Source of the DNA: a virus | Strand: one strand, 5' to 3' | IMG/VR virus record: IMGVR_UViG_3300044712_000999 | Location: 1-39,422 of that record | DNA: 39,422 bases | Shown: in pieces, positions 1-39,422 of the stretch | Layout: each line of letters opens with the position of its first letter | Numbering within the stretch: position 1 is the first letter of the stretch | Made by a program: the position numbers and the translations under genes | Notes under the pieces: generated by a model | Database searches by the model: none | What the model was told of the DNA's origin: nothing | What the model saw: the letters and a program-made list of their open reading frames with translations, nothing else

Positions 1-127
1 CCAAGCATTACCAGAGACCCGAGCATAACCAGAGACCTGAGCATAACCAGAGACCCGAGCATCACCATAGACCTGAGCATCACCATAGACCTGAGCATCA
101 CCATAGACCTGAGCATCACCATAGACC
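1..127. repeat. Exact terminal direct repeat, left copy (assembly overlap of a circular genome)
   Basis: Bases 1-127 are identical to 39296-39422, compared base by base. The length equals a commonly used assembler k-mer, and one reading frame continues through the join, so this is best read as the overlap of a circular or circularly permuted contig rather than a biological terminal repeat. The overlap lies inside a tandem repeat, so the true number of repeat units could be larger than assembled. Confidence 0.9.
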
Positions 128-246
128 TGAGCATCACCATAGACCTGAGCATCACCATAGACCTGAGCATCACCATAGACCTGAGCATTACCATAGACCC
201 AAGCATTACCAGAGACCCGAGCATAACCAGAGACCCAAGCATTACC
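1..246. repeat. 18-bp tandem repeat array, left part
   Basis: About 13 degenerate copies of an 18-base unit (minus strand GGTGATGCTCAGGTCTAT and variants such as GGTAATGCTTGGGTCTCT). The unit length is a multiple of three, so copy-number change keeps the reading frame of the beta-helix gene. Variation between units falls mostly at the third and sixth residues of the hexapeptide (Q/W/R and Y/S). Confidence 0.95.
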
Positions 247-393
247 ATCTTGATTAAGATTTTCCTCTTTCTCTATATAACCCCCTAATTCTCCCTTTAT
301 TACAGACCCAAAACTCACTTCTGCTTTAACTTGAAATAACGTAATTCCACGCCATTCTATTTTATTTTTTGTTAGACTATATTTTTTACTCAT
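1..393 (-). CDS. Hexapeptide-repeat beta-helix protein, N-terminal part (continues at 39295 across the circular join)
   Basis: The gene starts at ATG 393 and reads MSKKYSLTKNKIEW, then a GELGGYIEKEENLNQDGNAW segment around residues 34-53, and from about residue 50 tandem hexapeptides of the form G-(N/D)-A-(W/Q/R)-V-(S/Y). Each 18-base DNA unit gives one hexapeptide. This layout matches phage and bacterial hexapeptide-repeat proteins of the YdcK type, which fold as a parallel beta-helix. The frame leaves the window at base 1 and, because 1-127 equals 39296-39422, continues into the C-terminal part at 38927-39422. It is the last gene before the contig end, and upstream lies the structured non-coding stretch 394-761. 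No catalytic residues are evident, so a structural or receptor-related virion role is only a guess. An alternative frame reading MVMLRS is a repeat artefact. Confidence 0.8.
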   Translation of the reverse strand, partial: MSKKYSLTKNKIEWRGITLFQVKAEVSFGSVIKGELGGYIEKEENLNQDGNAWVSGYARVSGNAWVYGNAQVYGDAQVYGDAQVYGDAQVYGDAQVYGDAQVYGDAQVYGDARVSGYAQVSGYARVSGNAW

Positions 394-3779: not shown

Positions 3780-4649
3780 CTAATCTTCTAATAACTCTTG
3801 ATTAATTCCTCGACTTTTCCATAATTTGTTTGCTTGTTTGTGTAATTGTAAATATGATTTAATTGATAATCGAATTCTATCTTCCCATTTATTAGATGCA
3901 AGCGCTTCAATTCCCCAATCTTTAATATAGTCCCAAACTTCTTGAACTTGCTTTTTATCTTTATATTTAAAAACTTTCATTTTTAATGTATCTGTAAATA
4001 CAGGAATTGAACCAAATCGTGATGGAGATGTCCAAGAAGAACTATCTACTGAAAAGAAAGGATATCGATATAATTGCTCCCATGAAGTAACAGCAAATCC
4101 GTGTGTTTTAATCGTGTCTTTAATGATAGAAAAAACTTGATTTAACCAATTTAATTTCTCTTTCATTGAAACGTCGTTAGCGGGCGATATACCAATATAA
4201 TCACAATGATTTCGAAGCTTATCTAACCATTCAAAACTTTCATGTTGATGAAATACTGGAATAACTTTAAGACCTTTTGATTCCAAGTATTCCATATTTT
4301 TCCAACCTTCAGATGCACTTTCTTCTACTTGTCGTTGTGTTGGTCTTTGTCCAAACTTTCCAGGTAAGACATCTAAGTTTACGCAATAGATATTACAAAG
4401 AGGAAATAATTCTTTAACTTGTTCACAGAAATAAGCATATTGATCTATGTTTACTTCTTCGCCTCGAGTCCAAACTGAAAATGCCCCTGAATCTATAATT
4501 AAGTTTTTTGGATTATAATCTCCAAAGATCTTTCTTGTTTGGATAGGACTCTTAAAGAAAGCATAAGAAAATAGAACATTTTCTACTCCTTCTTTTTGAA
4601 GTAAACTTACATATTTTTCTGTGTGGCTTGTAGCAAAAAAGACTCTCAT
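3780..4649 (-). CDS. dpdA: DpdA-like DNA 7-deazaguanine transglycosylase (TGT superfamily), 289 aa
   Basis: Family members exchange guanine in DNA or tRNA for a 7-deazaguanine base. TGT-fold motifs in order are IDSGAFS (52-58, equivalent to DSGGFQ of tRNA TGT), NLDVLPG (91-97), IPVFHQHE (130-137), YIGISP (151-156) and VDSSSW (201-206), whose Asp is the likely catalytic nucleophile. The protein is shorter than tRNA TGT and lacks the C-terminal CxCxxC zinc site, as expected for phage DpdA proteins. The start is ATG 4649, overlapping the QueF stop by four bases (ATGA). Its position downstream of the preQ1 genes indicates that preQ1, or preQ0, is inserted into phage DNA. A phage tRNA-modifying enzyme is a less likely alternative. 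Confidence 0.85.
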
Positions 4650-5140
4650 TTTTTTATATCCCAACTATTAACAACTTTTCTAATTTCTTGCATTGTTGAA
4701 AAAGTTAATTCACAATTCCATCTTTCAACTAATGGTTTAATAGCTAAACCACCCCTTGAAGCAAAATCTCCAAATACTCTAAGATAATCAGGTTTTAATA
4801 CTTTAACTAAATCATTTGCAATACGATTACAAACATCTTCGTGAAATTCACCTGTATTTCTAAATGAAAACAAATAAAGTTTAAGAGATTTACTTTCAAT
4901 CATTTTATCTCCTGGAACATAAACTATTTCCATTTTTGCATGATCTGGCTGTCCTGTTTTTGGACACAATGAAGTAAATTCATCTCTTTCTTGAATAAAA
5001 GGAACAAGTGTAATCCCTTCGTTGTGTCCTTTAAGAGATTTATTTGTTTCAAATGTTTCAAGTAATTCAGGTCTAACTTGATCTGTTTTGTATTCTGTTT
5101 TTTTAGCTCCTAAACTTTTTAGATTTTTACTATTTGACAT
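4646..5140 (-). CDS. queF: NADPH-dependent 7-cyano-7-deazaguanine reductase QueF, 164 aa
   Basis: Reduces preQ0 to preQ1. It has the unimodular QueF architecture: [13 protein letters not shown] at 54-66 with the nucleophilic Cys59 and general acid Asp66, the ESKSLKLYL segment at 82-90 that contacts substrate and [15 protein letters not shown] at 93-102, and a [15 protein letters not shown]-terminal motif. Length is normal for this type. The start lies four bases after the QueC stop. Its presence means the pathway runs past preQ0, so the predicted DNA base is preQ1 rather than preQ0 or archaeosine. Confidence 0.92.
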
Positions 5141-5144
5141 AAAA

Positions 5145-5789
5145 TTAAATTAATGGATCTGGTAAATTAGCTTTCTTAAACGCTTCTTCTCGTTCTTGAC
5201 AAGCCCCACACTTGCCACAAGGTTTTTCTTTTCCTTCATAACAAGTTTGTGTTAATTTATAATCTACTCCAAGTTTACGACCCATAATTGCAATATCACC
5301 TTTATCCATCATCAAAAATGGAGCATAAACCTCTATTGATTTAAAGTTTGATATTCTTGAAAGGTCTCGTAAAGCATAAATGAATTCAGGTCTACAATCA
5401 GGATAAATAGCGTGATCTCCAGCGTGAACACCAAGAGCAATTTCATCATAATCAAGATTAACAGCATATCCAATTGCAATAGATGCCATTATCATATTTC
5501 GATTTGGAACAACTGTTAATTTCATATTTTCAGCTTCATAATGACCGTGAGGCACTTCTATATCTCCCGTAAGCGCTGAATTAGAAATTAACTTAGTTAT
5601 ATTAGAAATATCAACAATTTCGTGTTCAATCTCTAATTTACTACAAGTTTCTTTTGCTTGATTAAGTTCTCTTTTATGTCTTTGACCATAATCAAAACTT
5701 ATTGCTTTTACTTTTTTACCTTCATGCAAAAGTTTATATAATAAAGTTGTTGAATCCATCCCCCCACTAAGAATTATAACAGTTTTCAT
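5145..5789 (-). CDS. queC: 7-cyano-7-deazaguanine synthase QueC, 214 aa
   Basis: ATP-dependent conversion of carboxy-deazaguanine to preQ0. The PP-loop SGGMDS is at residues 8-13, [10 protein letters not shown] follows near 32-41, and the C-terminal zinc site uses Cys183, Cys191, Cys194 and Cys197 (TCYEG...CGKCGAC). Length and motif order are standard. The ATG is one base after the FolE stop (TAGTATG), so translation is probably coupled. Confidence 0.95.
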
Positions 5790-5790
5790 A

Positions 5791-6351
5791 CTATTTACAA
5801 TTAGTTAATGATAAAAATTCAGCCCTTGTTTCAGGTTCGTCTTTAAAGACACCACGAAGATCTGATGTTGTCATAAAACCATTTATCTTTTTAATTCCTC
5901 GCATCTCTTTACAAAGATGACGACCTTTAAGAATTAATGCTATTCCTTTTGGTTTAAGATGTTGCTCTAATTCATCAACAATCTCTTTAACTAATCTTTC
6001 TTGAACTTGAAGTTTTGCTGAATAATAATCAACAATTCTAGCAACCTTACTTAAACCAATTATTTTTTCATTAGGCACATAAGAAAAATAATACTGCCCA
6101 AAAAATGGAACCATATGATGTTCACATTGAGAGAAAAAATATCCAGTATCAGTTATCATTTGATCATAAGACAAACCATCATTTTTATTGTCAAAAACAG
6201 TTACTTTTGGCTTTTGATCTTTATCGTATCCTCGATAAAGTTCTTCCCACATTTTAACAACACGACTAGGAGTATCTTTTAGACCTTCACGATCTGGATT
6301 ATCTCCAATAGCACTTAACATACTCTTAACTAAATCTTTATAGTGACTCAT
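5791..6351 (-). CDS. folE: GTP cyclohydrolase I (FolE type), 186 aa
   Basis: Converts GTP to 7,8-dihydroneopterin triphosphate, the first step to queuosine-type bases. Zinc ligands are visible as Cys76 and His79 in SQCEHHMVPF and Cys147 in HLCKEMRG, with the same spacing as in the bacterial enzyme. GLSKVARIVD and LQVQERL (99-120) are the conserved core. In this context it serves deazaguanine rather than folate synthesis. The start overlaps the stop of the phosphoribosyltransferase gene by four bases. Confidence 0.95.
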   Translation of the reverse strand: MSHYKDLVKSMLSAIGDNPDREGLKDTPSRVVKMWEELYRGYDKDQKPKVTVFDNKNDGLSYDQMITDTGYFFSQCEHHMVPFFGQYYFSYVPNEKIIGLSKVARIVDYYSAKLQVQERLVKEIVDELEQHLKPKGIALILKGRHLCKEMRGIKKINGFMTTSDLRGVFKDEPETRAEFLSLTNCK

Positions 6352-6749
6352 ATTGTTCCATCTCTCTTAGAGCTTTTAATAGTTTCAAACGGAAACACAA
6401 CCCATTCATCTTTCTTAAGAACATTTACATAATAGTTTGGTTTAAACTTTGTGTGCGGTGTAGTCCAAAGTGTAGCCACTATACTATTTTTCTTAGCAAT
6501 TTTCTTTAAAGTTTTACCAGTATCTGAAATATCATCAACAATAAGAGTTTCGTCTGAAATCTTATTTGCTGATAAAATTAAAGGTAGTTTTAATCTATGA
6601 GACAACACAACCGCAATAATTAAACCACCTCTTGGGACTCCATAGATATTTTTAAAGTTAAAATTAAGAAACTTAAGTTCTTTTTCTAACTTACCAATAT
6701 CTTCCATCATTTGAACTAATCCATAGTGAACTAACTTTTTATTCTTCAT
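6348..6749 (-). CDS. Type I phosphoribosyltransferase-like protein, 133 aa
   Basis: Carries the PRPP-binding signature VDDISDTGKT at residues 71-80 and a YGVPRGGL strand-loop at 36-43, both typical of purine or xanthine phosphoribosyltransferases. At 133 residues it is on the short side. It lies between queD and folE with overlaps on both sides, so it is co-expressed with the preQ1 pathway. It could salvage guanine released by the DpdA exchange reaction, feed GTP synthesis, or act on a deazaguanine base; the sequence does not decide. Confidence 0.8.
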   Translation of the reverse strand: MKNKKLVHYGLVQMMEDIGKLEKELKFLNFNFKNIYGVPRGGLIIAVVLSHRLKLPLILSANKISDETLIVDDISDTGKTLKKIAKKNSIVATLWTTPHTKFKPNYYVNVLKKDEWVVFPFETIKSSKRDGTI

Positions 6750-7176
6750 ATTTTGCTGTGCTTGTAGGGGTTTCCCATATTTTCACATATTTAATTTTAA
6801 TACCGACCTCTTCTAATTTCATTTTCATTTTTATATATAACCACTTAGCTATGTTTTCAGCGGTGGGGATAAATGATACAGCAATAATTTTCATATCTAA
6901 ACCATCTCTAAAATCTTTAAAGTATTTCCAAAGATTTTCATCTTCAAACATCATAAATCCGTGGTCAAGTTTAGCATCTATTTCATCCATCATTATTTGT
7001 TTTAAATCTCCAAAATCAATTACCATTCCTTCTGAACTTGAACCATCTTCTGTAATAATTTTATCATCAACACCTACTTCAATCTTATATCTATGCCCAT
7101 GTAAATTACGACACTTGCTTTTGTGATTTGGAACTCTATGTCCCATATCTATTTCTATTTCTTTTGTTATGAGCAT
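6739..7176 (-). CDS. queD: 6-carboxy-tetrahydropterin synthase QueD, 145 aa
   Basis: PTPS/QueD family: zinc ligands His13, His26 and His28 with catalytic Cys22 in KCRNLHGHRY, then GMVIDFGDLK (50-59), LDHGF with Asp71-His72, PTAENIA (104-110) and WETPTS (134-139). The Cys and HGH spacing is that of QueD. The end overlaps the phosphoribosyltransferase start by 11 bases. It acts after FolE and before QueE. Confidence 0.93.
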   Translation of the reverse strand: MLITKEIEIDMGHRVPNHKSKCRNLHGHRYKIEVGVDDKIITEDGSSSEGMVIDFGDLKQIMMDEIDAKLDHGFMMFEDENLWKYFKDFRDGLDMKIIAVSFIPTAENIAKWLYIKMKMKLEEVGIKIKYVKIWETPTSTAKYEE

Positions 7177-7364
7177 AAAATCAAATTATCATCATCAAAA
7201 TAATAACAACGACCTTGTTTTCCATTTGAATTACAATCATGGCCTCCTTCAATTTCTTTGTCAAATTGTACTCCAATAGAATTAATACTAAAAGCAACTA
7301 TATTTCCAAACCAACCCTTAAAAGGACCATGAATAATTTTTACTTTATCTTTTAAATTAAACAT
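7167..7364 (-). CDS. Small SH3/KOW-like protein, 65 aa
   Basis: Begins MFNLKDKVKIIHGPFKGWFG, a KOW-like beta start, and continues with GGHDCNSNGKQGRCYYF, a Gly-His-Cys pattern seen in small phage proteins with an SH3-like barrel. It sits between the queE terminator-like hairpin and queD, overlapping queD by ten bases. No specific function can be given; a nucleic-acid or protein-binding accessory is likely. Confidence 0.65.
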   Translation of the reverse strand: MFNLKDKVKIIHGPFKGWFGNIVAFSINSIGVQFDKEIEGGHDCNSNGKQGRCYYFDDDNLILCS

Positions 7365-7398
7365 ATCTATAAATTAACTAATAATGGTTTAAAATTAA

Positions 7399-7430
7399 GA
7401 TAGAGCGAGACAGAAGCTCTCGCAACTATC
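7399..7430 (-). terminator. Hairpin after queE, terminator-like
   Basis: GATAG (7399-7403) pairs with CTATC (7426-7430) and GCGAGA (7405-7410) with TCTCGC (7418-7423), 11 pairs with a small internal loop. On the minus strand it is followed by an interrupted U-rich run (TTAATTTT). It lies nine bases after the queE stop. Read-through to queD would be needed to express the rest of the pathway from the same promoter. Confidence 0.6.
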
Positions 7431-7439
7431 TCACTCAGA

Positions 7440-8123
7440 TTATACTCCACGAACACCATCGAACTCAACCACATGAAGTCTATCTGAGAAATTGAAACCA
7501 AACCGAGCACAAAGCTCTTTGGTTGCACTTCGAGTCTGATTAAGCTCCTCTCTGGTTTTGCCGAGAGGCATCAGATAAACCGAAGTCATGTTAAAAGTAT
7601 CTACATACTCAAACACTTCTTCGATATCTTTCTGACTTGCAATCACAAACTTGAAATGAACCTTTGAACTTTGAGCAAGTGCTTCAAGTGCTTTTGACCG
7701 CACTCGATGTTTGTGAGTATCGCCAGAATTGCTGAGTTTAGGTGAACAGTTAAACTGATCAACCAACTCAAACATTTCAGACGACGGAATCATCGTGCCA
7801 TTTGTTTCGACTTCGATCCACCATCCTTTTGCTTTAAGAGCAATGAATAGTGTTTGAAGTTCTTTCTGTTGAAGAAGTGGTTCGCCTCCAGAGACAACCA
7901 ACGACTTCACTTCAGAACTTTCGAGAACAGACAGCACTTCACTCACTTCCATTTCGTGCACTTCTTTTGTTCTGTCGAACTGTTTCCAGTCCCAGGTGTA
8001 TTTAGTATCACACCAAGAACAACGAAGGTTACAAAATGAAAGTCGTAGGAACATTACAGGGAGTCCTACTGATTTTCCTTCACCTTGGATTGTTGGTCCA
8101 AAAATCTCATTGACTTTTAGCAT
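7440..8123 (-). CDS. queE: 7-carboxy-7-deazaguanine synthase QueE (radical SAM), 227 aa
   Basis: Makes 7-carboxy-7-deazaguanine from carboxy-tetrahydropterin. The radical-SAM cluster motif CxxxCxxC is Cys31, Cys35 and Cys38 (CNLRCSWC), preceded by TIQGEG at 11-16 and followed by a SGGEPLLQ SAM-binding motif. ATG 8123 is chosen because AAGGAGGA ends four bases upstream; an in-frame ATG at 8189 would extend over the leader hairpin. The gene is distinctly richer in GC (about 45% in sampled lines, against about 30% in folE), and it has its own leader and a hairpin after the stop. It therefore looks like a cassette of separate origin from the rest of the pathway. Confidence 0.95.
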   Translation of the reverse strand: MLKVNEIFGPTIQGEGKSVGLPVMFLRLSFCNLRCSWCDTKYTWDWKQFDRTKEVHEMEVSEVLSVLESSEVKSLVVSGGEPLLQQKELQTLFIALKAKGWWIEVETNGTMIPSSEMFELVDQFNCSPKLSNSGDTHKHRVRSKALEALAQSSKVHFKFVIASQKDIEEVFEYVDTFNMTSVYLMPLGKTREELNQTRSATKELCARFGFNFSDRLHVVEFDGVRGV

Positions 8124-8496
8124 TGAGTCCTCCTTTCTCAAAGAACTATTCAGTGTTAATTCACTGAATCCTGATAACGTGGCTGACATTATCAGGTCTC
8201 AATGAATTAAAAATCTATTGACGGTTTGATATAATCTCCCCGTCGATAGATGTGTTACTATTCTTTTCTACTAGGCCTTAAAAGTATGTTTAGAAAAAAA
8301 TAGAAGGCATATAAGCGAAGATTCATTTCAGCATTGTTTACTTTAACATTGTTATTAGTTAAACGATTGCTGTTGGTAAATGAAGAGCGTCGCGCCAGAA
8401 AGTCCTCTGATAAAAAACTCTGTATTTCAACTGAAATATGGATTCTTTTTTATCATAAGGATATTTCCAGCACCTTTTGGATAATTACTTATCCAT
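8124..8496 (-). promoter_or_regulatory. Long structured 5' leader of queE (about 370 nt)
   Basis: No gene is supported here. Consecutive hairpins on the minus strand: 8202-8144 (AATTCATTGA...CCTGATAA / TTATCAGG...TCAGTGAATT, 18 pairs), 8249-8215 (CTATCGACGG / CCGTCAATAG plus a U-run, terminator-like), 8303-8291 with 8270-8258 (13 pairs, one G-U), and 8377-8333 (CAGCA / TGCTG with an inner TTTAAC / GTTAAA). Further upstream, TATTTCA pairs with TGAAATA near 8430-8446. The proximal hairpin followed by GTTCTTTGAGAAAGGAGGA is shared with the cassette at 13211. I looked for a preQ1 riboswitch and did not find one. Confidence 0.6.
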
Positions 8497-9392: not shown

Positions 9393-9687
9393 GATGGTAT
9401 AAGCTACGCTTCCCCAATAAGTTTAATTGGAGATAAATAATGATACTTTATATAAAAATTGCTCTTCTCAATTACATAGCTGATATCCCCTTAATATCCC
9501 CGCCTTGATGAGTTATATCTCACGGCTTATAGCCAGGCATAGCATCAATCTTGAAGTCTTATTAAAATGAACAGAGGGTGTAGCGTGATGGGTGTTTATC
9601 CTGCTACAGGACTCTATTCACTTTATTTTGGATGTTTTTTTAGAGGATTACCCAAAAGCTCTTGCAATTTTATTGTCAAACACAACG
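9393..9687 (-). promoter_or_regulatory. Structured leader upstream of the nuclease operon
   Basis: No supportable ORF. On the minus strand 9624-9612 pairs with 9576-9564 over 13 positions (two G-U only on this strand), enclosing TGTAGC/GCTACA at 9608-9603 and 9584-9579. Further down are GCC-TGAG / CTCA-GGC (9526-9502) and small hairpins close to the start codon. The basal stem shares GTGAATAGA and the complement of TGAACAG with the stem at 450-642, so the two regions may hold related RNAs. A TTGACA at about 9679 has no matching -10. Confidence 0.5.
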
Positions 9688-9715
9688 AAAAAACGCGTAA
9701 CAATTAAGTTACGCG
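9688..9715 (-). terminator. Intrinsic terminator of the small RNA
   Basis: On the minus strand CGCGTAAC (9715-9708) pairs perfectly with GTTACGCG (9701-9694) over a 6-nt loop and is followed by six T (9693-9688). It lies about 75-100 bases after the promoter at 9797-9824. Confidence 0.88.
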
Positions 9716-9790
9716 CCTCGTCCGTTTATGTTGAACAGAAAGCAAAATACATTTTGGAATATATTCTGTTTTCTAAATCTGTTCAACATA
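9688..9790 (-). ncRNA. Candidate phage small RNA, about 103 nt
   Basis: A consensus promoter (9797-9824) would start transcription near 9790 and a strong terminator ends it at 9688. The transcript opens directly with TATGTTGAACAGA-type sequence: 9790-9778 forms a perfect 13-pair stem with 9739-9727. There is a 38-nt inner loop and then the terminator hairpin. No start codon with a plausible ORF lies inside. The 5' strand contains TGAACAGA, complementary to the UCUGUUCA found in the stem of the adjoining leader (9564-9576), so pairing in trans is possible. An attenuated leader of the downstream nuclease genes is the alternative. Confidence 0.65.
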
Positions 9791-9796
9791 CTACGT

Positions 9797-9840
9797 ATTA
9801 TATATCCATTAAAAAAAAAGTCAAGCAAAAATTATCCCCA
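9797..9840 (-). promoter_or_regulatory. Sigma70-like promoter of the small RNA with DnaA-box-like element
   Basis: -10 TATAAT at 9802-9797, -35 TTGACT at 9824-9819, spacer 16. TTATCCCCA at 9832-9840 lies seven bases upstream of the -35 and directly after the stop of the gene encoding the DnaA-domain-IV-like protein. Confidence 0.82.
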
Positions 9841-9842
9841 CC

Positions 9843-10211
9843 TTAATCCTGCTTAAGATATAAATACATAATCGTTGTATGGTCGTTTTTAAACAATTTA
9901 GCAATGTTGGTAATCGAATAATTAAAATTATCTTTTAATGCTTTTATAAGAATTGTTTTTTGTATAATAATCTTTTTCTGACGACCTTTATTTGAAAGTC
10001 GTTTAATCTCAGAAGTAAGATTATTTCTAATTAATTCATTAACATTCTTTTTATATTCCTTTCTAATTTTTTCAATTTGTTTTAATCGTCTTTCTTCTTC
10101 ACCTTTTCTTATTTGACGAGCTCTTTCATATGAAACACCATAACGTTTAGCAAGTTCTGTTATTGATAGTTTAGATGTTTTTATTCTGTTATTTCTGGTT
10201 TCTATTTTCAT
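9843..10211 (-). CDS. DNA-binding protein with HTH and DnaA domain IV-like region, 122 aa
   Basis: The N-terminal part has a helix-turn-helix (KLSITELAKRYGVSYERARQ, about 14-33). The middle is a basic helix. The C-terminus (about 80-118) resembles DnaA domain IV, which recognises DnaA boxes: SITNIAKLFKNDHTTIMY at 99-116 matches the family pattern of helix, basic loop and (R/N)DHTT. No AAA+ ATPase domain is present, so it cannot be a full initiator. ATG 10211 follows the preceding stop by one base; a longer start at 10241 would overlap the upstream gene. Because TTATCC(A/C)C(A/T) boxes precede five phage promoters, this protein is a candidate regulator of those promoters. Confidence 0.75.
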   Translation of the reverse strand: MKIETRNNRIKTSKLSITELAKRYGVSYERARQIRKGEEERRLKQIEKIRKEYKKNVNELIRNNLTSEIKRLSNKGRQKKIIIQKTILIKALKDNFNYSITNIAKLFKNDHTTIMYLYLKQD

Positions 10212-10212
10212 A

Positions 10213-10566
10213 CTAAAAATCATTATTTGATAATGTTCCAATTTTACTTACTTGTTCTTCGTAATTTTTATCTTGCATTTTAATTGCATATTCTTTTCTT
10301 CCTAACCATCTTGAATGTTGTTCTAATCTATTTTGACATTCTTTAAATAAGGGAATGTTTTTAATACTAAATGTTTCGGTTGTTGCTCCTCTATCAAAAA
10401 ACCATCTTTCGATTCCTTCTTTAGGTACATATCGAATCATTTTACCACTTAATTCTTTTTCTATTGCATATTTATCTAATTCAGCATCAAGTGCGTGTAG
10501 TTCTTGTTTAGATAATTCTGGATAAGTAATTTCTTTCTTAATTTGTGATTCTCCTATTCTTGGCAT
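10213..10566 (-). CDS. Hypothetical protein, 117 aa
   Basis: Begins MPRIGESQIKKEITYPELSK, mainly charged with predicted helices and an aromatic patch (IERWFFDRG). Its ATG shares bases with the previous stop (TAATG). It lies between the gene for the DnaA-IV-like protein and a 253-residue unknown in the replication/recombination block, so a DNA-metabolism role is likely by position only. Confidence 0.65.
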   Translation of the reverse strand: MPRIGESQIKKEITYPELSKQELHALDAELDKYAIEKELSGKMIRYVPKEGIERWFFDRGATTETFSIKNIPLFKECQNRLEQHSRWLGRKEYAIKMQDKNYEEQVSKIGTLSNNDF

Positions 10567-11327
10567 TATTTTATTAAGATCTTAAGTAATGTTTCTAATG
10601 TATAGTCTTCGTATTTAAGCTTAGCATATTCAATTGCTTTCACAATTTGACTATCTGTAAATGATACAAGTTGTCCGGCTGGTTTAACATGACGAGTAAA
10701 AGCAATTTGGTATTGTTTTTTATTTTGAATATCTGGTTTTCTATATCTTAAATATAAAGCCATTATGTTTAAATCACGACGAGGATTTGCTTCTAACTTT
10801 TCAATCTCCTTAGAAAGAGAAAAATCTTCCTTAATTGGATCTTTTGTTAAGATTTTATTTTCAACTAAGTAGTCAATAAAATTATCAGGACCTCCATAAG
10901 GAAAAATAGTATCTTTCCAATTTTTGAAGTAAGTTGGATTTAATGCTTGTTCAGGTGTTGCATAATTTTCTTCTAAGTAGTCAACAATTCTTTCTAAAAA
11001 ACCTTGATTTAATTTTCTTTTAGTTGATTGTCCTACTTTATGAACTTTACCAGCAATTGTAACAAGTTCAGCATTAAACTCAATTTTTAACCACTCCCTA
11101 ACTTTTTCAAGATCCTGAGAATCACGATGATCTAATTCTTCTTGATAAAAAGTTACCAAAGGCACAAGAGCTCCTTCAAACCAACCTCTTTGCTTTGAAC
11201 TTTCTGCTATTAAAGGTTTAATTTCAAAAGGCATACCAGGATTAGCTTTCATGTATTCTTTTAATTTTCTTCTGGTATAGTCTCCAAAATTAAGACCCCC
11301 ATCTTTTGTAAATCTACCTTTAAACAT
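10566..11327 (-). CDS. Hypothetical protein of the recombination block, 253 aa
   Basis: The N-terminus FKGRFTKDGGLNFGDYTRRK is followed by KPLIAESSKQRGWFEGALVP (about 38-57), which recalls the substrate segment of NinB-like phage recombination proteins, but the match is weak. The rest is helical and charged. The stop couples to the next gene (TAATG). It is best left as an unknown probably acting with the YqaJ exonuclease and the SSB-like protein. Confidence 0.6.
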   Translation of the reverse strand: MFKGRFTKDGGLNFGDYTRRKLKEYMKANPGMPFEIKPLIAESSKQRGWFEGALVPLVTFYQEELDHRDSQDLEKVREWLKIEFNAELVTIAGKVHKVGQSTKRKLNQGFLERIVDYLEENYATPEQALNPTYFKNWKDTIFPYGGPDNFIDYLVENKILTKDPIKEDFSLSKEIEKLEANPRRDLNIMALYLRYRKPDIQNKKQYQIAFTRHVKPAGQLVSFTDSQIVKAIEYAKLKYEDYTLETLLKILIK

Positions 11328-30900: not shown

Positions 30901-30925
30901 AAAAAAGATGTCCGTATGGACACCT
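30901..30925 (-). terminator. Terminator-like hairpin in the portal leader (attenuator candidate)
   Basis: On the minus strand AGGTGTCC (30925-30918) pairs with GGACATCT (30913-30906), eight pairs with one G-U only on this strand, followed by T-run 30906-30901. It lies about 20 nt after the predicted transcription start and just before the portal ATG at 30889. Confidence 0.78.
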
Positions 30926-30950
30926 TTCAGTTTATGAGTAGGATATATGT

Positions 30951-30979
30951 ATTATATGAACTTTACCTAAAAAAGTCAA
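30951..30979 (-). promoter_or_regulatory. Strong sigma70-like promoter of the structural operon
   Basis: -10 TATAAT at 30956-30951, -35 TTGACT at 30979-30974, spacer 17. Unlike the other five promoters it has no TTATCC box upstream, only the partial flank CGGTTGAC, which marks it as possibly differently regulated (late class). Confidence 0.85.
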
Positions 30980-38926: not shown

Positions 38927-39422
38927 TTAATCTATTGTGGCAGTCCATTCTTTGCCATCTATTTTCACAGATACTTTTTTGCCTGAAAGAGATACCTCTT
39001 TCGGCTCGTCTATTGGTGTAATTTCATAATCTCCTAATACATATTGATTTTCCCAATAAGTTGAACCAGTTTTATCTGTAATGTCTGTGATTTTTCCTGT
39101 ATCATCTCCTCCAATAAACCAACCTTTTGTAAACGATGCTTTTAATGAGACCCAAGCATTACCAGAGACCCAAGCATTACCAGAGACCCGAGCATAACCA
39201 GAGACCTGAGCATAACCAGAGACCCGAGCATCACCATAGACCTGAGCATCACCATAGACCTGAGCATCACCATAGACCTGAGCATCACCATAGACCCAAG
39301 CATTACCAGAGACCCGAGCATAACCAGAGACCTGAGCATAACCAGAGACCCGAGCATCACCATAGACCTGAGCATCACCATAGACCTGAGCATCACCATA
39401 GACCTGAGCATCACCATAGACC
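38927..39422 (-). CDS. Hexapeptide-repeat beta-helix protein, C-terminal part (start lies at 393 across the join)
   Basis: Entering from the window end in the frame of the N-terminal part (39296-39422 = 1-127), about 15 hexapeptides of the GNAWVS/GDAQVY type run to 39150. A non-repetitive tail follows: SLKASFTKGWFIGGDDTGKI, then YWENQYVLGDYEITP and a small C-terminal beta domain ending GKEWTATID before TAA at 38927. The tail has no ATG-initiated frame of its own, which is why it is easily missed. Joined across the circle, the protein has about 21 or 22 assembled repeats flanked by unique ends. Confidence 0.8.
   Translation of the reverse strand, partial: VYGDAQVYGDAQVYGDAQVYGDARVSGYAQVSGYARVSGNAWVYGDAQVYGDAQVYGDAQVYGDARVSGYAQVSGYARVSGNAWVSGNAWVSLKASFTKGWFIGGDDTGKITDITDKTGSTYWENQYVLGDYEITPIDEPKEVSLSGKKVSVKIDGKEWTATID
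39150..39422. repeat. 18-bp tandem repeat array, right part
   Basis: About 15 copies of the same 18-base unit as 1-246, including two higher-order blocks of the same series of variants (39169-39296 and 39296-39422). This indicates duplication of a multi-unit block or an assembly ambiguity. Confidence 0.93.
39296..39422. repeat. Exact terminal direct repeat, right copy
   Basis: Identical to bases 1-127. See the left copy for interpretation as a circular contig overlap. Confidence 0.9.

Follow-up and report, generated by a model that had tools for sequence, protein, structure and literature searches.

A short structured RNA with a predicted promoter and terminator of its own ahead of a nuclease and 7-deazaguanine gene region in a phage

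The locus and its phage

The window, that is, the whole stretch of DNA that was analysed (39,422 nucleotides, record IMGVR_UViG_3300044712_000999), is viral and has a G+C content of 33%; its main genes lie on the minus strand and Shine-Dalgarno sites are few. Its genes include a GpA-type terminase, a chaperonin and a 7-deazaguanine cassette, a type of gene cluster that protects phage DNA (PMC6884629). Among named phages, the two capsid matches with the best coverage are the TM7 phage DolZOral124_53_65 (30% identity) and a spring phage, both of which also carry a chaperonin gene, so that the host is probably a Patescibacterium. The TM7 phage infects Saccharibacteria, a group in which, to our knowledge, the gene regulation of phages is poorly understood. 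An 18-bp tandem repeat, AGCATCACCATAGACCTG, occupies both ends of the window (1-248 and 39147-39422), reflecting either a circular genome that was opened inside the array or a joint made in assembly. The features around the RNA are as follows:

3780-8189: 7-deazaguanine cassette with DpdA-like transglycosylase (phrog_887), QueF, QueC, GTP cyclohydrolase (FolE), phosphoribosyltransferase, QueD and QueE
9393-9687, minus strand: structured leader after the terminator, ahead of a 58-aa frame (fold z = -3.4 for 9393-9670)
9715-9688, minus strand: intrinsic terminator, with an 8-bp core (9715-9708/9701-9694), loop 9707-9702 (TTAATT) and T6 at 9693-9688
9789-9709, minus strand: 26-codon ATG frame, a candidate coding frame, with its TAA (9711-9709) inside the terminator
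9790-9778/9739-9727, minus strand: lower stem of the 5' hairpin, 13 bp, a perfect inverted repeat
9777-9769 and 9742-9740, minus strand: internal loop of the 5' hairpin (9 nt and 3 nt), from the predicted fold
9768-9758/9753-9743, minus strand: upper stem of the 5' hairpin, 11 bp, with tetraloop 9757-9754, from the predicted fold
9792-9789 (predicted start) to 9688 (end), minus strand: short structured RNA, from its fold and a homologue
9824-9819 (TTGACT) and 9802-9797 (TATAAT), minus strand: sigma-70-type promoter, spacer 16
9843-10241, minus strand: 132-aa protein with an N-terminal HTH and a DnaA_C-like C-terminus, from profile matches

Read along the minus strand, positions 9824-9688 comprise the promoter, the hairpin, a linker and the terminator with its T6, giving an RNA of ~103 nt. 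All three elements described in an earlier note on this DNA were found again: the promoter TTGACT-16-TATAAT agrees with the consensus at 11/12 positions, the perfect 13-bp stem at the predicted start was recovered independently as an inverted repeat, and the perfect terminator with six T does end at 9688. The predicted fold of 107 nt has an energy of -44.5 kcal/mol (z = -10), and 0/200 shuffles were equally stable. The window's minus strand has three promoters of this score, compared with ~1.9 per shuffled strand, and the promoter alone is not significant in a genome of this G+C content; the case is carried by the hairpin, the terminator and a second phage's homologue rather than by the promoter.

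The unit follows the gene at 9843-10241 within 20 nt, in agreement with the earlier placement directly after a DnaA-like gene, and the DnaA_C match of the protein (E 1.8e-6) lies below Pfam's own cut-off. The protein has two HTH motifs, the first of which is weakly sigma region 4-like (E 0.016).

A homologue in a second phage

Relatives were collected by capsid protein and comprise some twenty near-complete records. While a direct sequence search among them missed it, a scan for promoter-RNA-terminator units (unit L125 19706-19559, minus strand) led to a homologue in a second phage, G027 (contig IMGVR_UViG_3300020045_008807), where an RNA of ~113 nt with the same layout lies at L125:19673-19561 on the minus strand, behind the promoter TTGCCC-18-TATAAT (L125 19706-19677) and ahead of an HNH gene, a 99-aa frame and QueE. 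Aligned with each other, the two RNAs score z = 10.8 relative to shuffles, and no other site in the fetched G027 sequence scores as well as the true one. Of the base pairs, 31/32 are common to both RNAs, and seven have changed on both sides (one in the lower stem, two in the upper stem and four in the terminator), compared with 0-1 two-sided changes in slid-alignment controls; an extra T-A pair is furthermore inserted in the lower stem. The sequence is conserved in the lower stem, the upper stem and the terminator loop, which reads TTAATT in both phages, and varies in the apical loop and the linker. This pattern probably reflects a conserved RNA fold, albeit in two sequences, which give no single-pair statistics, and with terminators covarying anyway. 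Covariation in relatives had been suggested as a check, and the compensatory stem changes are present in one relative.

A discrete structured RNA with a promoter and a terminator as its bounds, as originally proposed, is well supported by this homologue with compensatory changes at the corresponding place of a second phage. From the sequence features, the predicted fold, the homologue and its compensatory changes we infer that the unit is transcribed, and with good confidence that it constitutes a gene for a short structured RNA with its own sigma-70-type promoter and intrinsic terminator.

The homologue also bears on two simpler accounts of the locus. In the first, the terminator and an extra hairpin, acting as an RNase III site or as a 3'-end stabiliser, would close the transcript of the adjacent DnaA_C-like gene, and the promoter would be due to chance. 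It is true that promoters scoring this well are not rare by chance and that the gene is close by, but in G027 a promoter with a perfect TATAAT is found at the same place behind a different upstream gene, and in both phages the hairpin begins at the predicted transcription start, making this account unlikely. In the second, the inverted repeat would act at the DNA level, as a pair of operators (TGTTSAACA dyads) that lie in inverted orientation at the promoter and to which the neighbouring HTH protein would bind. Each arm does contain such a dyad, and the window has 7 where 0.6 are expected; however, the other five copies lie within long genes, near matches are only marginally enriched (36 vs 26; 3/100 shuffles), G027 yielded no counterpart of the HTH protein, and operators would leave the covarying pairs of the upper stem and the terminator unexplained. 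We regard operators as very improbable, and a tandem operator model was rejected as weak.

In searches of Rfam 15, tRNA and tmRNA the RNA fell below every family threshold, with the trpB motif giving the best Rfam score (24.6 bits vs gathering 59); the Rfam families with weak matches share with this RNA a terminator hairpin at the end. Blastn with the RNA sequence against phages and plasmids returned chance matches only, and matches in three further phages (G018, G043 and G044) were dismissed as chance hits to coding sequence. The exact stem pattern occurred at 17 loci in viral and genome collections, all of them unrelated hairpins. A covariance model of the RNA, run over the relatives, scored strongly only in the window and in L125; weak matches in L113, L117, L166, L167, L160 and L165 were rejected, and no third member emerged from the other records searched. 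On the strength of these searches the RNA appears to belong to no described family and to have two known members. Viral contigs yielded no relatives of the upstream protein (P0001), of its neighbour at 10566-11327 or of YqaJ.

Among the 22 capsid-sharing records, the RNA was found only in the window and in G027, the same two in which a profile search detected a QueD-family gene, and QueC only in the window. Since several records that lack the RNA share 82% capsid identity with the window, compared with 74% for G027, the RNA seems to follow the que region and not the capsid (n = 2). In other que phages a covariance-model search found the RNA absent. An RNA outside the described families, with covariation between two phages, heads a region that leads to a DNA-modification cassette.

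Possible gating of the downstream operon

In the window 298 nt separate the terminator from the first downstream frame. The leader in this gap (9393-9687) contains no recognisable promoter, the best score being 9/12, as in random stretches; the same holds for the stretch between the terminator and the next genes in G027 (best 8/12, as in random stretches). Within 9393-9670, upstream of the que region, the leader contains GCUACACCCUCU, which we take to resemble a strand of a preQ1-I riboswitch; a search with the preQ1 families of Rfam gave no match for the leader even at E 10.

An antiterminator pairing that would compete with the terminator is absent from both RNAs, such pairing being weaker than in 287/300 shuffles for the window and in 260/300 for the homologue. 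A riboswitch or attenuator with alternative folds was rejected on this ground; since no fold competes with the terminator, its passage would need a factor, which argues for a protein-driven gate or a stand-alone RNA.

The most likely role, which we favour tentatively, is that the terminator of the RNA gene gates the operon leading into the nuclease and que genes, in the style of lambda PR'-6S-tR'. The promoter would fire constitutively and give only the short RNA, a phage factor would let RNA polymerase past the terminator into the nuclease and 7-deazaguanine (que) operon, and the 5' hairpin would serve as a stabilising or recognition element on the nascent RNA. That the RNA and the QueD-family genes share the same two records among the 22 capsid relatives speaks for such a gate.

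The layout resembles that of lambda, where the PR' promoter, the 6S RNA and tR' are governed by the antiterminator Q (PMC6606751), in having its own promoter, a short RNA, an intrinsic terminator and an operon beyond it without a recognisable promoter. Promoter and intrinsic terminator of the unit lie within ~200 nt of each other, as they do in lambda gates, and in some relatives a position after a block of NinG- or HTH-type genes is shared as well. A block of this kind precedes the late gate in the lambda gene order. Unlike in lambda, no Q homologue is found here, the 5' hairpin is strong, and the downstream operon consists of a nuclease and que genes rather than of lysis or structure genes. 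The promoter spacers TTTTTTTTAATGGATA and AAAAATAACTAAAGGAGG have no common direct repeats (by eye), so that no Q-binding element was seen, and none of the antiterminator families matched among the proteins scanned. Because a Q-type antiterminator or binding element is lacking, the unit was not classed as a lambda-type gate. Q of phage 21 uses a sigma region 4-like fold (PMC6606751), and by analogy the HTH protein at 9843-10241 may be a Q-like factor, although this is only a lead, as the protein was not found in G027. The put RNA of HK022 is likewise a structured nascent RNA near a phage promoter, but put itself suppresses termination, whereas here a terminator follows at once (PMC9378689).

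The main rival to the gate is a stand-alone sRNA of the phage whose targets in trans would be host or phage mRNAs or a protein, with the downstream genes using an unrecognised promoter of their own; we consider this distinctly possible, if less likely. The compact gene, with its promoter, strong fold, strong terminator and conserved structure, fits an sRNA, as do the weak pairing of the RNA with its own terminator strand (below 287/300 shuffles) and the sequence conservation of both stems and the terminator loop. However, this loop (UUAAUU) is the only conserved stretch that is unpaired, so that a clear seed is missing, and the apical loop and the linker are not conserved. Nor does a target emerge from the leader: eight bases of the RNA 5' strand are complementary to it (TCTGTTCA, 9575-9568), as had been pointed out, but a match of this size was reached by 19/500 shuffles and is near chance, both partners are buried in stems, co-folding of RNA and leader gains only 0.4 kcal/mol, and the leader sequence is not detectably conserved in G027. 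Control in trans through this pairing, which the earlier note had suggested, is not supported, while its second suggestion, a leader-derived RNA, holds in the sense of a terminated leader and comes close to the gate that we prefer. The IsrK RNA of the Gifsy-1 prophage combines a short terminated RNA with a longer read-through form from one promoter, as proposed here; trans action is proven for IsrK, and the likeness is one of layout, with no homology seen (PMC4825925).

The RNA had been thought to contain no open reading frame, which is wrong, as the frame from ATG 9789 runs for 26 codons into the terminator and is nested in a 39-codon TTG frame from 9828. In the G027 homologue an ATG occupies the aligned position and its frame stays open for 31 codons, with a different peptide. 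This would suit a translation-coupled attenuator, in which leaderless ribosomes start at the ATG and stop within the terminator, keeping it open when they follow the polymerase closely. The leader of E. coli pyrBI works in this way. In both phages, of all frames only that from the conserved ATG reaches the terminator without a stop (probability of both by chance 0.025), and the scarcity of Shine-Dalgarno sites in the genome fits leaderless initiation. Yet the pattern was spotted post hoc, indels put the frames of the two phages out of register so that the peptides differ, and queuosine-read codons are not enriched (5/26 and 5/31 by hand count, about the expectation for an A+T-rich genome); we therefore think such coupling quite improbable. 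If it did operate, the RNA family would tie expression of the 7-deazaguanine operon to the state of the host ribosome.

Similar units before the portal gene and elsewhere

A second unit of this layout is present in the window:

30904-30979, minus strand: promoter-short RNA-terminator unit, 14 nt before the portal start (30889)

Many relatives, like the window, have a promoter, ~41-70 nt and a terminator directly ahead of the portal gene; in the clear cases the terminator ends 14-20 nt before the start codon, so that the portal operon needs read-through, either from this promoter or from upstream. About half of the 57 portal-upstream regions compared combine a promoter, a short conserved motif (roughly CTCAACCnAACA..GGCG) that can often form a mini-hairpin, and an intrinsic terminator; such units were seen in the window (30979-30889), L002, L009, L011, L041, L047, L054, L058, L074 and others, and together look like a family-wide late gate. 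Since no promoter is recognisable downstream of the RNA and the portal layout needs read-through, a gate is the most economical reading for both units of the window. Against it, the portal units do not have the long 5' hairpin, the 9688-9792 RNA does not clearly contain the motif that they have ahead of the terminator, and the 298-nt gap leaves room for an unrecognised promoter, for instance one of another type. If the gate is real, the RNA and the matching portal units would allow direct tests of when the phages of this group transcribe their genes.

Two further relatives carry noncoding elements in comparable positions. In G021 a promoter-terminator unit (L117:10236-10321) follows a NinG-like gene; it was rejected as a further member of the RNA family, being non-homologous, and its 8-bp GCUUUGUG/CACAAAGC pairing, which would compete with the terminator, makes it a candidate attenuator. 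In G019, ~390 nt of noncoding and apparently structured sequence (L108:802-1193, minus strand), for which Rfam gave no credible match, follow DnaA_C-like and NinG-like genes. The placement of both elements resembles that of the lambda gate, as a positional analogy and not as homology.
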